From the NCBI GenBank assembly GCA_020725885.1, contig DYEA01000008.1:1-64000 (forward strand): 64,000 nucleotides of DNA, written 5' to 3'. Below the pieces are notes generated by a model. That model did no database searches, was not told the DNA's origin, and saw only the letters and a list, made by a program, of their open reading frames with translations. Positions 28,585 through 59,573 of this stretch are shown piece after piece. This DNA comes from Slackia sp. (lineage in GTDB: Bacteria; Actinomycetota; Coriobacteriia; Anaerosomatales; Anaerosomataceae). Position 1 is the first letter of the stretch. Every line of letters starts with the position of its first letter. Position numbers and translations under genes: made by a program.

Positions 28585-29235
28585 TCAGCCGGCTTCTTCG
28601 ATGGTCTCCGGACGCACGAGGCAGCGCTGGACGGCTTCACGGATGACGGCATACGGCCGGGAGCCGATGAGGAGCTCGTTGCAGATGAGCGCAGAGGGCG
28701 TCTCCCGGATACCGAGGTGCAGCGCGATGTGCCGGAACTGGTGCAAGCGCTCGTCGTACCGCCCCGAGTCCCAGACCTCGTCCATCTCGCCGCGGTCGAA
28801 GCCGTGCTTCTCGCCGATGGCAGCCAAGACTTCCCGATCGCCGATGTCGCGGCCGTGCACGAAGTACTCGCGGAAGATGTCGAGGTGCAGCGGCCAGAAG
28901 ACCTCTTCGCCCTTGTCGCGGCCAAGCTCGGCGAGCGCCATCGCGTCGTGCGTCTTGGGTATGAGGTCTGGCAGCACCATCCGCTCCCCCTCTTTGGCAG
29001 CCAGCTCGATCAGCCGCTCCTCGACGCGCTGCGAATGCCCGAGGCCGTCTCGCGACGCCGACAGACCCTCTGGCGGCATGTCCGGCCGGAGCTCGAACGG
29101 GACTCCGACGAGTTCCACCTGCATCTCTTCGCGCAACTTCAGGAACCGGAACTGGTCCACGAAGCAGAACGGTCAAGCGTAGTCGTAGAAGACCAGGATC
29201 CGCGGGACCACTCCGGATGTCGCTCCTTCGCTCAT
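28585..29235 (-). CDS. FrnE/DsbA-family thiol oxidoreductase, selenocysteine-containing (UPFC)
   Basis: Read through an in-frame TGA (29173-29175), this is a 216-aa FrnE-like thioredoxin-fold protein. ATG 29235 gives MSEGATSGVVPRILVFYDYA, then the TGA as residue 21, then PFCFVDQFRF. The TGA falls exactly at the first cysteine of the CPFC active site, making U-P-F-C. The rest has the FrnE pattern: VPFELRPDMPPEG near residue 53, a helical insert, and the cis-proline segment GIRETPSALICNELLIG. A SECIS-like hairpin follows the TGA (29137-29164). No signal peptide is seen, so it acts in the cytoplasm, on thiols, disulfides or isomerisation. It lies 8 bp after amrS. Alternatives are a pseudogene or a base error; family alignment and the hairpin argue against these. 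Confidence 0.85.
29137..29164 (-). promoter_or_regulatory. SECIS-like hairpin for the FrnE-family TGA
   Basis: On the minus strand, eight bases after the TGA, CUUCGUGGACC (29164-29154) pairs with GGUUCCUGAAG (29147-29137) in 10 of 11 positions, including two G-U pairs and one U/C mismatch. The loop is the hexamer AGUUCC. The loop begins 19 nt after the TGA. In bacterial SECIS elements the apical loop lies about 16-37 nt after UGA and carries a GU used by SelB. Both features fit here. Confidence 0.75.
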
Positions 29236-29243
29236 GCCGCTCC

Positions 29244-30254
29244 TCACTCGATCACGCCGAGCGGCTCGCCGCACGCGGCGCACGAGCCGTCGCTTGTCGC
29301 CCGTTTGACGATGCGATACCCGTCCCGCTCGATGGCAACGGCGCCGCACCGCGGACACACGGTGTCTTCGCCTCCTGGCTCAGAGACGTTGCCGAGGTAG
29401 ACGAACTGCAGTCCCTCCTCCTTGCCGATGCCGCGGAACCGGTGCAGGGTCTCGACCGGCGTCGGCGGCAGGTGCGACAGCTCCAGGTACGGGAAGAACC
29501 GCGTCACGTGCCACGGCGTCTTCGGGCCGAGGCTGTCCCGGATCCAGCGGGCGATGCTCCTCGCGGTTTCCTCTGAGTCGTTGACGGACGGGATCACGTT
29601 CGTGACGACCTCGACGTGCATCCCCCAGCGCTCCTTCGCCCTGACGGCGCCTTCGAGCACCGGGCGTAACGAGCGCACCTTGCAAAGACGCCTGTAGGTC
29701 TCGTCGTCGAAACCCTTCACGTCGACGCGCCACACGTCGATGACAGGGCCGAGGTAGTCGAGCCCCGCCTCCGTGACGTGGCCGTTGGTCACCATGACGG
29801 TGTAGACGCCTGCATCACGCGCCAGCGACGCGGTGTCGCGCACGAACTCGGCCCAGATCACCGGCTCGTTGTACGTGAACGCGATCCCCTCGCAGGACTC
29901 GGCGCGGGCTATCGCGATCACGTCCGCCGGCTCGATCCGCCTGACGCCCCCGTCTTCGAGCTTCGCGCGGCTGATCGACCAGTTCTGGCAGTGGAGGCAC
30001 CGCATGGTGCACCCGACGCTGCCGAGCGACAGGGCGCGCGTCCCCGGCTTGTAGTGGAAGACCGGCTTCTTCTCGATGGGGTCGACGGCGATCGAGGACA
30101 CGGCGCCGTAGCTTTCCGCGACGAGCCGTCCATCCCGGTTGCGCCGGACGCCGCAGATGCCAGCCCCGCCGTCGGCGATGCGGCAGCCGTGGGGGCACAA
30201 GAGGCAACGCACGCCGCCGCCTTCGGCGGGTTCCCAAAGGTCGGCCTCGCGCAT
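29244..30254 (-). CDS. amrS: AmmeMemoRadiSam system radical SAM enzyme
   Basis: This 336-aa protein belongs to the AmmeMemoRadiSam family, related to glycyl-radical activating enzymes. It has N-terminal cysteines (CLLCPHGCRI ... GICGVR), then the radical SAM site CTMRCLHC near residues 82-89, AFTYNEPVIW and the C-terminal zinc-ribbon-like CPRCG ... CAACG. The AmmeMemo partner proteins are not in this window, so it is separated from its usual cluster or the partners lie elsewhere. RBS AGGAGG precedes ATG 30254. It lies between the hydrogenase-like GGDEF gene (11 bp) and the selenocysteine FrnE gene (8 bp). The reaction in this organism is unknown. Confidence 0.9.
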   Translation of the reverse strand: MREADLWEPAEGGGVRCLLCPHGCRIADGGAGICGVRRNRDGRLVAESYGAVSSIAVDPIEKKPVFHYKPGTRALSLGSVGCTMRCLHCQNWSISRAKLEDGGVRRIEPADVIAIARAESCEGIAFTYNEPVIWAEFVRDTASLARDAGVYTVMVTNGHVTEAGLDYLGPVIDVWRVDVKGFDDETYRRLCKVRSLRPVLEGAVRAKERWGMHVEVVTNVIPSVNDSEETARSIARWIRDSLGPKTPWHVTRFFPYLELSHLPPTPVETLHRFRGIGKEEGLQFVYLGNVSEPGGEDTVCPRCGAVAIERDGYRIVKRATSDGSCAACGEPLGVIE

Positions 30255-30265
30255 GCCGCTGCCTC

Positions 30266-32077
30266 CTACCCAGACGGAGCGATCCGCGTCCGGTCAGGCC
30301 CCTCGAGAATCGCCGCCTTCAGCGCCTGCTCGGCAGCCTCCACGAGGTCGTCGCCCTCGATCGTGCCGCTGTGCGCCGCAGCGATGCCGGCGCACGCGGT
30401 CAACCGGACGTCACCTGTATACCCGTCCGCCTCGAAACTCCGCTCCCGTATGAGCGTCCGCAGCTTCTCCGCCACCGCGAACGCAGCAGTCTTCCCCACG
30501 CCGGGCAACAGCACGGCGAACTGGTCTCCCCGCACGCGCGCGACCATGTCCGTCGAGCGCACGTTCTGCGCGAGCAGCTCCGCGAGCTGCCGCAAGACGG
30601 CGTCTCCCCCGCGCTCGCCGACCAGGTCGTTGACAGCCCCGAACCCGTCGACGTCGAGCAGCACGAGCGACAGCGGCGTGCCGTACCGGGCGAACCGCGC
30701 GACCTCGAGCGCGACCCGCTCGTCGAACGCCCGAGCGTTCCACACGCCGGTGCCCTCGTCCACGGTCACGAGCGCGCTGACCGCCTCTTCCGCGCTGCGG
30801 AGGCGCCGCCGTTGCAGCGGGAAGCACATCTCCCAGCTGGACTCTCCTCGGAAGATGGCCTCGGCGTGCTCGACGCACGTCGGGTAGCCGCACGCGCCGC
30901 AGTCGGGCGTCTCCGCTCGCGAGGCGAAGCCCGCTTCCGCGAGCAGCGCGTCCACGACGGCGGGCGACGGACGCGGCACGTGCACCGGCGAGGGCCGGAA
31001 GGAGCGGACGAGGTCGACCTTGGGCAGCACTTCCACGAGCGTCTTCGTGCTCACCGTCGCCACGCCGACAGCGTTTCGCGATGCGCGGTCGACGTTGCGC
31101 TTGGCGAACAGCGACATGCCCGGGTTGACCGCCGGCCCGTCGATGCAGCCTTCGCAGTTGAGAGCGTCGATCAAGGTCGGCGCCGTGTCTCCTGCCGCGA
31201 TGGCGCGCAACAGCCGGTCGAGGACCGGAAGGCCCCTGACGACCTGCACCTCGCCGTCTCCGGGGAAGCAGCCGTCGATCGTCTCGCGCGGGAAGCCGTC
31301 GGTGAGCGACACCTCTTTGAGGATCCTGGGGCGGGCCGTCGGGGTGACCTGCGACACGCCGCGCTGAACGCTCCGCTCGGTCTCGGCGATCATCCGCTTG
31401 AGCTCGGTGAAGTCGATCGCCGCGTCGATGGCGCCTCCGAACTCCTCGTCGTAGACCTCGTCCTTGCGCGCGTAGCACGGGCTGACGTACACGATCGCGA
31501 CGTCGTCGCCGTACAGAGACCGGATCAGGCGAGCCTGCGCCACGTACGGAGGCACGATGGGAGCGAGCGCGGGAGCCAACGCCGGATGGTACTTCCGCAC
31601 GAATTCGACGACCACCGGGCACGTCGACCGGATGAGGAACAGCGACGCCTCTCGGGCATACGCCCGCTGATACTCCATCGCGACGATCTCTTCTCCGAGC
31701 GCCGCGGTCTCGACCGACGCGAAACCGAGCCCGGCGAGCGCCCGCTCGACCGCGAGCGGGGTCATCGGGTGCATGGCTGCGATGAACTCGCTGGCGAGAA
31801 GCGCCACGACCGTGCGCCGGCTGGCCAGCAAGTCCCAGACCGCCGGGGTGTCGTCTCGGACCTGGTGGGCGGCCGCTCCGCACTCGCCGACGCACAGCCC
31901 GCACGCCACGCACTTCTCTTGGATCACTTCCGAACGGCCGTCGACGACACGGATCGCACGCACCGGGCAGACCCGCACGCAGCCCCAGCACTCGGTGCAC
32001 GTCGCCTTCCGGTGGCCGATGAGCGGCTGGCGCTCAGCCGCCTCGCTCACCGCGGTCCCGTCCGACTCCCCTCGCAC
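30266..32077 (-). CDS. Ferredoxin-[FeFe]-hydrogenase-like sensor fused to a GGDEF domain
   Basis: This 603-aa protein joins four modules. Residues 24-70 are a 2x[4Fe-4S] ferredoxin (CTECWGCVRVCP, CVACGLCVGECG). Residues 80-370 are an [FeFe]-hydrogenase large-subunit-like domain with cysteines at the three H-cluster loops: RSTCP near 152, SPCYARKDE near 202 and NCEGC near 308. Around residue 390 is CGACGYPTC, an extra Fe-S motif. Residues 435-600 are a GGDEF domain with RGDQF at the signature site near 517. The fusion suggests a cytoplasmic redox or H2 sensor controlling cyclic-di-GMP. The loops differ from catalytic hydrogenase (no TSCCPxW), so sensing is more likely than H2 turnover. GTG 32077 is preferred; a second GTG lies 27 bases downstream. 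Confidence 0.85.
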   Translation of the reverse strand: MRGESDGTAVSEAAERQPLIGHRKATCTECWGCVRVCPVRAIRVVDGRSEVIQEKCVACGLCVGECGAAAHQVRDDTPAVWDLLASRRTVVALLASEFIAAMHPMTPLAVERALAGLGFASVETAALGEEIVAMEYQRAYAREASLFLIRSTCPVVVEFVRKYHPALAPALAPIVPPYVAQARLIRSLYGDDVAIVYVSPCYARKDEVYDEEFGGAIDAAIDFTELKRMIAETERSVQRGVSQVTPTARPRILKEVSLTDGFPRETIDGCFPGDGEVQVVRGLPVLDRLLRAIAAGDTAPTLIDALNCEGCIDGPAVNPGMSLFAKRNVDRASRNAVGVATVSTKTLVEVLPKVDLVRSFRPSPVHVPRPSPAVVDALLAEAGFASRAETPDCGACGYPTCVEHAEAIFRGESSWEMCFPLQRRRLRSAEEAVSALVTVDEGTGVWNARAFDERVALEVARFARYGTPLSLVLLDVDGFGAVNDLVGERGGDAVLRQLAELLAQNVRSTDMVARVRGDQFAVLLPGVGKTAAFAVAEKLRTLIRERSFEADGYTGDVRLTACAGIAAAHSGTIEGDDLVEAAEQALKAAILEGPDRTRIAPSG

Positions 32078-58044: not shown

Positions 58045-59108
58045 GCGCCGATCGTCGCTTCGGACGGCTGCTCGTGGGCACGAGCGGATGGTCGTACGCG
58101 CACTGGACCGGAGTCGTGTACCCACCCGGCCTGCCGGCAGGACAGCGGCTCGCGCGCTACGCGCAGACATTCACCACCGTGGAAGTGAACGCCACCTTCT
58201 ACAGGACGCCGAGCGAGAAGACGGTCGACGTATGGCGCGAGGTCACGCCCGCAGGTTTCGTGTTCGCCGTGAAGGGCACCCGTCTCGTCACCCACATCCG
58301 GCGGCTCCGGGACGTCTCGGACGCGGCCGCCGCGTTCCTCGACCGCATCTCGCGCCTGGGCGGCAAACTGGAAGTCGTGCTTTGGCAGCTTCCGCCGTCG
58401 CTTCGCCGCGACGAGGCGCTGCTCGCGGAGTTCCTGCAGGTGCTCGAGGAAGCGGCCGTCCCGGGACGCGCAGTCAGGCACGCCATCGAGTTCCGGCACG
58501 ACTCGTGGCTGGACGACAGGGTGTTCTCGACCCTCGCCGAGCGCGGCGTCGCCATGGTCAACGTGAGCGGCGAGACCCTGCGGACGGTGCTCGTGCCGAC
58601 GGCCTGCTTCGTGTACGCGCGCTTCCACGGGCTGCCGCTCTATCGCGGCGCGTACGACGAGCGCGCGCTTGAGCCGTGGGCGCGCTACCTCCGCGAGCAT
58701 CTCGCGGAAGGCCGCGACTGCTATGCGTACTTCAACAACGACGCGGAGGGCCACGCCCCGCGAGACGCGCTCAGACTCCTCGCGATGACGTCCTCGCTCC
58801 GCGAGGGTAAGAACTCCGTGACTTTGTCAGCGGATCCACGAGGAGGTGAGCCTGTGTCGGAAGAGATCGCTGTGGGCTGCGGGCGGCCGACCGGATCGGT
58901 CGTGGGCGCCGCAGCGCCGGATGCCGAGAAACCCGCCGAGGCCACGAAGGAGGTCGTGCCCGTGAGCAGCATCATGGTAGGACGCCCCGCGCCTGATTTC
59001 GTCGCGCCCGCGTACCACAAGGGCAAGTTCGTGAGCTTCAAGCTCTCTGAACTGCTGGGTTCGTGGGTCGTGCTCTGCTTCTATCCCGGCGACTTCACGT
59101 TCGTTTGA
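58041..59108 (+). CDS. DUF72/YecE-like protein, reads on into the peroxiredoxin frame
   Basis: The first 253 codons are a full DUF72 protein: LLVGTSGWSYAHWTGVVYPPGL, FTTVEVNATFYRTPS, EFRHDSWLDD and the final DCYAYFNNDAEGHAPRDALRLL. ATG 58041 overlaps the endonuclease V stop (ATGA). The usual family length is about 240-260, but no stop follows: the same frame continues through the peroxiredoxin start (GTG 58854) to the TGA at 59106-59108. If the TGA is read as selenocysteine, a 510-residue DUF72-peroxiredoxin chain would result; if it stops, a 355-residue form results. A lost or mis-read DUF72 stop is also possible, since stops exist in the other frames nearby (for example TAA at 58807). Confidence 0.8.
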   Translation: MSADRRFGRLLVGTSGWSYAHWTGVVYPPGLPAGQRLARYAQTFTTVEVNATFYRTPSEKTVDVWREVTPAGFVFAVKGTRLVTHIRRLRDVSDAAAAFLDRISRLGGKLEVVLWQLPPSLRRDEALLAEFLQVLEEAAVPGRAVRHAIEFRHDSWLDDRVFSTLAERGVAMVNVSGETLRTVLVPTACFVYARFHGLPLYRGAYDERALEPWARYLREHLAEGRDCYAYFNNDAEGHAPRDALRLLAMTSSLREGKNSVTLSADPRGGEPVSEEIAVGCGRPTGSVVGAAAPDAEKPAEATKEVVPVSSIMVGRPAPDFVAPAYHKGKFVSFKLSELLGSWVVLCFYPGDFTFV

Positions 59109-59573
59109 CCGACCGAGATCTCGGCGGTCGCCGCGAAGTACGACCAGTTCAAGGCGCTCGGCGTCGAAGTCGTGGCCGTGAGCGTCGACTCCCAGTTCGT
59201 CCACAAGGTGTGGGACGAGCAGGAGCTGAGCAAGATGGTGGACGGCGGCATACCCTTCCCGATGGTGGCCGACGCAGCAGGACACATCGGCAGCGCGTAC
59301 GGCGTGTACGACCCGGAGGCGGGCGTGGACGTCCGCGGCCGGTTCATCATCGACCCCGACGGCATCATCCAGGCGATGGAGGTGCTCACGCCGCCGGTCG
59401 GACGCCGCGTCGACGAGACGCTCCGGCAGATCAAGGCGTTCCAGCACGTGCGCGCCACGAAGGGCGCAGAGGTCACGCCGTCCGGCTGGGAGCCGGGCAA
59501 GAAGGTCCTCAAACCCGGCCCGGACCTCGTCGGGCGGGTCTGGGAGGTCTGGAACCCCAAGGACGACGAGTAG
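58854..59573 (+). CDS. Peroxiredoxin with selenocysteine at the peroxidatic site
   Basis: Read through the TGA at 59106-59108, this is a 239-aa AhpC/TSA peroxiredoxin. The peroxidatic region reads VVLCFYPGDFTFV-TGA-PTEISAVAAKYDQF. The TGA stands exactly where the family has the peroxidatic Cys (FTFVCPTE), giving selenocysteine at residue 85. It continues VVAVSVDSQFVHKVW and ends GWEPGKKVLKPGPDLVGRVWEVW. No resolving Cys is found in the C-terminal part (TPSGWEPG). The only other cysteines are C9 in a 40-residue front extension and the one in VVLCFYPG. GTG 58854 has AGGAGGTGAG upstream. Reductant and peroxide substrate are unknown. Confidence 0.9.
59109..59133 (+). promoter_or_regulatory. SECIS-like hairpin for the peroxiredoxin TGA
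   Basis: Seventeen bases after the TGA, CGGC (59122-59125) and GCCG (59130-59133) close a GGUC loop (59126-59129). A GGU in the apical loop, 16-37 nt after UGA, is the hallmark of bacterial SECIS elements bound by SelB. An alternative longer stem, GACCG/CGGUC, encloses part of it. The stem is short, so the fold is less secure than that at 29.1 kb. Confidence 0.6.

Follow-up and report, generated by a model that had tools for sequence, protein, structure and literature searches.

In a gene for a FrnE/DsbA-like thiol-disulfide oxidoreductase of the class Coriobacteriia, selenocysteine (Sec) is almost certainly inserted at the catalytic site of this disulfide-handling enzyme by means of an in-frame UGA codon, as judged from sequence and its comparison among relatives. 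The gene lies in a 64,000-nucleotide stretch of DNA (hereafter the window, meaning the whole stretch analysed) on contig 7 of a 1.83 Mb genome. The in-frame TGA exceeds what chance would produce, since the same codon is TGA in 21 of 39 relatives and the sequence downstream of it evolves under purifying selection (dN/dS of 0.07-0.19 between the frnE relatives within the window's genus).

The gene and its reading frame

Translation of the minus strand from 29235 to 28585, starting from the ATG at 29233-29235, gives MSEGATSGVVPRILVFYDYA-U-PFCFVDQF..., with 192 residues after PFC before the TGA stop is reached (Table 1). The frame, the UPFC motif and the 195-residue continuation described in the original prediction, which had placed a TGA at the first active-site Cys of a FrnE/DsbA-like gene, were all recovered. 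That prediction had also held that standard gene callers would start the gene at 29160 and lose the active site; indeed, the mechanically produced list of open reading frames holds a frame at 28585-29160 that begins with GTG, 3′ of the UGA, and in which both U21 and C24 are lost.

Table 1. Coordinates, strand and supporting evidence of the features in the window.
Feature	Position	Strand	Evidence or remark
Sec-containing FrnE/DsbA-like thiol-disulfide oxidoreductase gene (predicted)	28585..29235	-	216 aa, ATG start, TGA stop 28585-28587; PF01323
UGA codon, predicted selenocysteine 21 (U21), first position of UPFC	29173..29175	-	TGA in 21/39 relatives, TGC/TGT in 18
Resolving cysteine C24 codon (putative role), invariant	29164..29166	-	alignment of relatives
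bSECIS hairpin (predicted), 11 pairs with one mismatch in this species	29136..29165	-	RNAfold and comparison
bSECIS apical loop AGUUCC	29148..29153	-	GUUC invariant in 21/21 TGA genes
Shine-Dalgarno AGGAG, 4 bases 5′ of ATG, overlapping amrS stop	29240..29244	-	
Thr-Pro motif, expected cis-proline P180 facing the thioredoxin-fold active site	28696..28698	-	T179 and P180 invariant; role inferred from DsbA family
Extra invariant cysteine C185	28681..28683	-	absent from other actinobacterial FrnE relatives
Extra invariant cysteine C205	28621..28623	-	absent, where aligned, from other actinobacterial FrnE relatives
amrS, AmmeMemoRadiSam system radical SAM enzyme	29244..30254	-	TIGR04337 314.4 bits, cut-off 220; directly upstream
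PrxU peroxiredoxin, second selenoprotein gene of the window	58971..59573, start codon provisional	+	TGA 59106-59108; NF040737 377.7 bits, cut-off 270

Selenocysteine and cysteine forms among relatives

Relatives were sought in 298 genomes of the class (E <= 1e-15), and 39 genomes, including that of the window, were found to contain one. Alignment of these homologues, which had been proposed as a check, shows the first active-site Cys codon to be TGA in 21 and TGC or TGT in 18, with TAA and TAG seen in none, and the relatives of the TGA form are spread over many genera. When the Sec or Cys label is mapped on a tree of 38 proteins, at least 6 changes are required (5-7 over bootstrap trees), and the strongly supported branches alone force 2 of them.

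SelA and SelB are found in most genomes with the Cys form too, so that the exchange between Sec and Cys takes place inside Sec-using organisms; the machinery being this common, the form carried has no telling correlation with the presence of SelA/SelB. Two drafts bearing the TGA form, G073 (96% complete) and G111 (82%), gave no match to selA, selB, selD or tRNA-Sec. These missing genes are probably assembly gaps, that is, missing contigs, because selA, selD and tRNA-Sec are present in G141, which belongs to the same genus as G073.

The codon 5′ of the Sec UGA (29176-29178 here) is GCT in 16 of the 16 TGA genes that code for Ala at this place, although GCT accounts for about 14% of the Ala codons elsewhere in the TGA genes and occurs at the pre-Cys codon in 2 of 17 Cys genes. 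Selection in favour of Sec insertion, or against termination, may have acted on the U that directly precedes the UGA.

The bSECIS hairpin

Folding of the 43 nt from the UGA with RNAfold gives one hairpin, whose stem of 11 pairs, with a single U.C mismatch, starts at the 8th base past the UGA and whose hexaloop AGUUCC begins after 19 bases (MFE -12.5 kcal/mol); this essentially agrees with the earlier description of 10 pairs out of 11 at spacings of 8 and 19 bases. These properties fall within the published bSECIS model, namely a loop of 3-9 nt with G in its first two positions, mostly followed by G/U, a spacing of 16-37 nt and an MFE <= -7.5 (PMC13188914). At gathering thresholds, Rfam has no match at the hairpin. 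Its stability is only moderately above that of shuffled sequences (z -1.65, with 12 of 200 shuffles folding equally well), and thermodynamic stability was rejected as stand-alone evidence on that ground. The hairpin had been called ‘strong’, a description that holds for its conservation across the 21 TGA genes and fails for its folding energy.

When the TGA genes are aligned, which needs no gaps, and numbered from the UGA, all 21 of them, which are not phylogenetically independent of one another, read G19 A20 C21 C22 - (A/G)23 G24 U25 U26 C27 (C/A)28 - G29 G30 U31, leaving pairs 20-31, 21-30 and 22-29 as well as the GUUC of the loop invariant. Pair 18-34 is likewise formed in all 21, as C-G in 17 and as G-C in the 4 species of the window's genus, a compensatory swap that ties the third base of Val+5 to the first base of codon +11. 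The covariation that the original prediction had proposed to look for is thus present (score 0.101 against 0.023 in shuffles, with 0 of 500 shuffles as high), and 89.8% of stem cells are paired in the TGA genes against 19-45% for slid partners. The compensatory change concerns only this one stem pair and probably happened once, at the base of the genus. The conserved part of the stem comprises only 7 pairs; position 32 may be regarded as bulged, and the MFE fold in the window's genus is the bulge-free register (G18-C33, G19-U32).

Selenocysteine machinery and a second selenoprotein

The genome carries selA and selB side by side on contig 4 (TIGR00474, 618 bits, and TIGR00475, 378.5 bits), with selD nearby, itself having an in-frame UGA (SGU23AAK). 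ARAGORN detected no tRNA-Sec in the contig stretch with selAB; the gene, with anticodon TCA (UCA), sits on contig 10. The working Sec system supposed at the outset is therefore represented by SelA, SelB, SelD and tRNA-Sec, and the absence of SelB or SelC, which was to count against it, is not what was found, selB and tRNA-Sec (selC) both being present. A search for other TGA-interrupted genes was also recommended; the search covered the window and selD, and such genes are prxU, in the window, and selD itself, elsewhere in the genome.

PrxU belongs to a family already named by NCBI (NF040737); its Sec stands in FTFVUPTE, and a possible SECIS loop, GGUC, lies ~17 nt past its TGA. The window also contains a c-di-GMP-II-GAG riboswitch at 1478-1565 on the minus strand (Rfam RF03169, 46.8 bits).

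Alternative readings of the codon and the hairpin

Standard translation ends at the TGA and the list of open reading frames starts after it, as would be expected if the codon were a true stop in a pseudogene or a sequencing error; this reading is nevertheless exceedingly improbable, given that 21 relatives from many genera share the TGA, that selection beyond it is purifying, that TGA is used and never TAA or TAG, and that the Sec machinery is complete. Hardly any more credit can be given to a restart at 29160 that yields a short FrnE devoid of its active site. A GTG is indeed present there, but it encodes Val26 within the conserved FCFVDQ helix, residues before the UGA are conserved (P11, L14, F16, D18 and Y19) and AGGAG precedes the upstream ATG. 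Since an in-frame TGA seems to be read through, one could also suppose that TGA stands for an ordinary amino acid genome-wide (a Trp, Gly or Cys code); yet TGA is an ordinary stop in this genome as well, ending for example both the frnE gene and amrS, and with a dedicated tRNA-Sec and SelB at hand such a code is next to impossible.

A different kind of objection is that the conserved hairpin merely reflects protein coding (VDQFRFD) and has no role in decoding, and the Cys genes do still pair 79.8% of the cells in this stem. The protein sequence dictates part of it (VD..FD), and this part persists in the Cys genes, so that what discriminates is the loop GUUC together with pairs 18-34 and 21-30: of the 18 Cys genes, 16 have lost GUUC and only L048 and L059 keep it, and 10 of 17 distinct Cys-gene rows have pair 18-34 disrupted. 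Against the coding explanation, the silent third positions of codons +6 to +9 (GAC, NNG, TTC, NGG) are fixed in 21/21 TGA genes, Phe+8 is found in all 21 as opposed to 2 of the 18 Cys genes, and Arg+9 is written only as CGG or AGG in the TGA genes, whereas Cys genes also use CGC, CGT and AGA. The stem is weak evidence; strong evidence comes from the loop, from Phe+8 and from the silent bases within codons +6 to +9, counted over genes that, again, are not phylogenetically independent. It is very unlikely that coding accounts for the hairpin. The original prediction would have taken TGC relatives without a conserved hairpin as a refutation. This was backwards, because a hairpin that serves Sec insertion should be lost from Cys homologues, and the decayed hairpins of the Cys genes support Sec at the UGA.

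Protein family and fold

The protein has a DSBA domain (PF01323, 81.1 bits against a cut-off of 25.6) and the FrnE fold with its active-site CXXC, here UXXC. The AlphaFold model (mean pLDDT 91.7) finds its best structural match in 5cp1, the FrnE of D. radiodurans, followed by SCO1869 of Streptomyces. With D. radiodurans FrnE (DR_0659; 5cp1/5cnw/5xwh) it shares the fold over 200 residues (Z 25.2, rmsd 2.0, 22% identity), an active-site motif at the matching place (CPWC in that protein) and the lack of a signal peptide; the D. radiodurans protein differs in having Cys where Sec stands here and a C-terminal CX4C (239-244), which is thought to regenerate the active site (PMC8945050). There is no C-terminal CX4C in the present sequence, which is no bar to membership, since some FrnE proteins lack it (PMC8945050). 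SCO1869 of Streptomyces coelicolor (3gl5) has the same fold (Z 24.3, 25% identity) and is a general match at the level of the FrnE/DsbA superfamily.

No signal peptide-like start is seen in the protein, so that a cytoplasmic location is likely, and homology suggests that the enzyme would act as a disulfide reductase or isomerase. D. radiodurans FrnE is a proposed cytoplasmic disulfide reductase whose loss leads to higher sensitivity to cadmium and diamide (PMC8945050). The cysteines C185 and C205 are invariant in 37/37 aligned relatives; the predicted secondary structure places them where strands and helices end, at a remove from the active site, and they could thus be structural or form a second redox pair.

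Relation to known selenoproteins

DsbA/FrnE-like proteins had been said to occur among bacterial selenoproteins, and this is borne out by the literature: DsbA-like proteins of COG2761 with Sec in a UxxC motif were described from Sargasso Sea sequences in 2005 (PMC1088965), a 2006 count in bacterial genomes gave four (PMC1794560), and a 2026 listing of selenoproteins has a ‘DsbA-like protein form 1, PF01323, UxxC’ (PMC13188914). The present protein has in common with them the DsbA-like thioredoxin domain, Sec as the first residue of UxxC, a bSECIS directly downstream and widespread Cys homologues, and differs in its occurrence in Coriobacteriia, its two extra invariant cysteines and its fixed linkage to amrS; it may belong to COG2761 itself, and its fold and sequence are nearest to FrnE. 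Eight FrnE relatives in other actinobacterial classes (L072-L074, L076, L079, L080, L082 and L083) also have TGA at the first Cys of the motif with a predicted hairpin after it, but are ~30% identical and are without C185 and, where aligned, C205; the flanks fetched for them gave no match to amrS.

The literature search returned no named FrnE selenoprotein and no account of this gene or lineage. The gene is an addition to the known DsbA-like Sec proteins, in a lineage without an earlier description in the literature found, and the new details are the position of amrS directly upstream in 37 of 39 relatives and the roughly six Sec/Cys changes on the tree.

The amrS neighbourhood and a proposed mechanism

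The two genes amrS and frnE are probably co-transcribed, and their adjacency among the relatives of the order holds for Sec and Cys forms alike. Partners of AmrS are encoded in the same genome by a LigB-AMMECR1 fusion on another contig (G000:C6), the LigB match of which suggests a Memo-like protein. In the papers searched on AMMECR1, MEMO1 and radical SAM enzymes, no function for the AmmeMemoRadiSam system was found. One tentative idea, which we consider rather doubtful, is that FrnE is a dedicated redox partner of this system that sets the thiol/disulfide state of AmrS or its substrate and whose Sec and Cys versions have been swapped repeatedly. Also on the minus strand, 30266-32077 encodes a 603-aa protein in which a domain like that of iron-only hydrogenases (Fe_hyd_lg_C with Fer4) is fused to a GGDEF diguanylate cyclase domain.

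In the mechanism proposed, SelB would bring Sec-tRNA(UCA) to the UGA, guided by a bSECIS that is part of the coding sequence and has its loop 19 nt 3′ of the UGA, and the ribosome would insert Sec and continue for 195 more residues. Sec21-Pro-Phe-Cys24 would then form the redox pair of a cytoplasmic FrnE-type (DsbA family) oxidoreductase, in which Sec21 would act as a low-pKa nucleophile that attacks substrate disulfides (or is oxidised), with Cys24 resolving the selenenylsulfide. Comparative sequence evidence lends strong support to the recoding step, and the enzymatic role and the link of the Sec-containing FrnE to its upstream partner AmrS are ones that we infer.

Implications

Gene callers that treat TGA as a stop begin this gene past its active site, and the relatives with TGA are therefore likely to be mis-annotated unless selenoproteins are specifically sought. 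The family offers a clean natural experiment on the exchange of Sec and Cys in organisms that mostly retain the Sec machinery, revealing the bases on which a SECIS depends and the way these decay after Cys has taken the place of Sec, while the conserved amrS neighbour provides a handle on the AmmeMemoRadiSam system.
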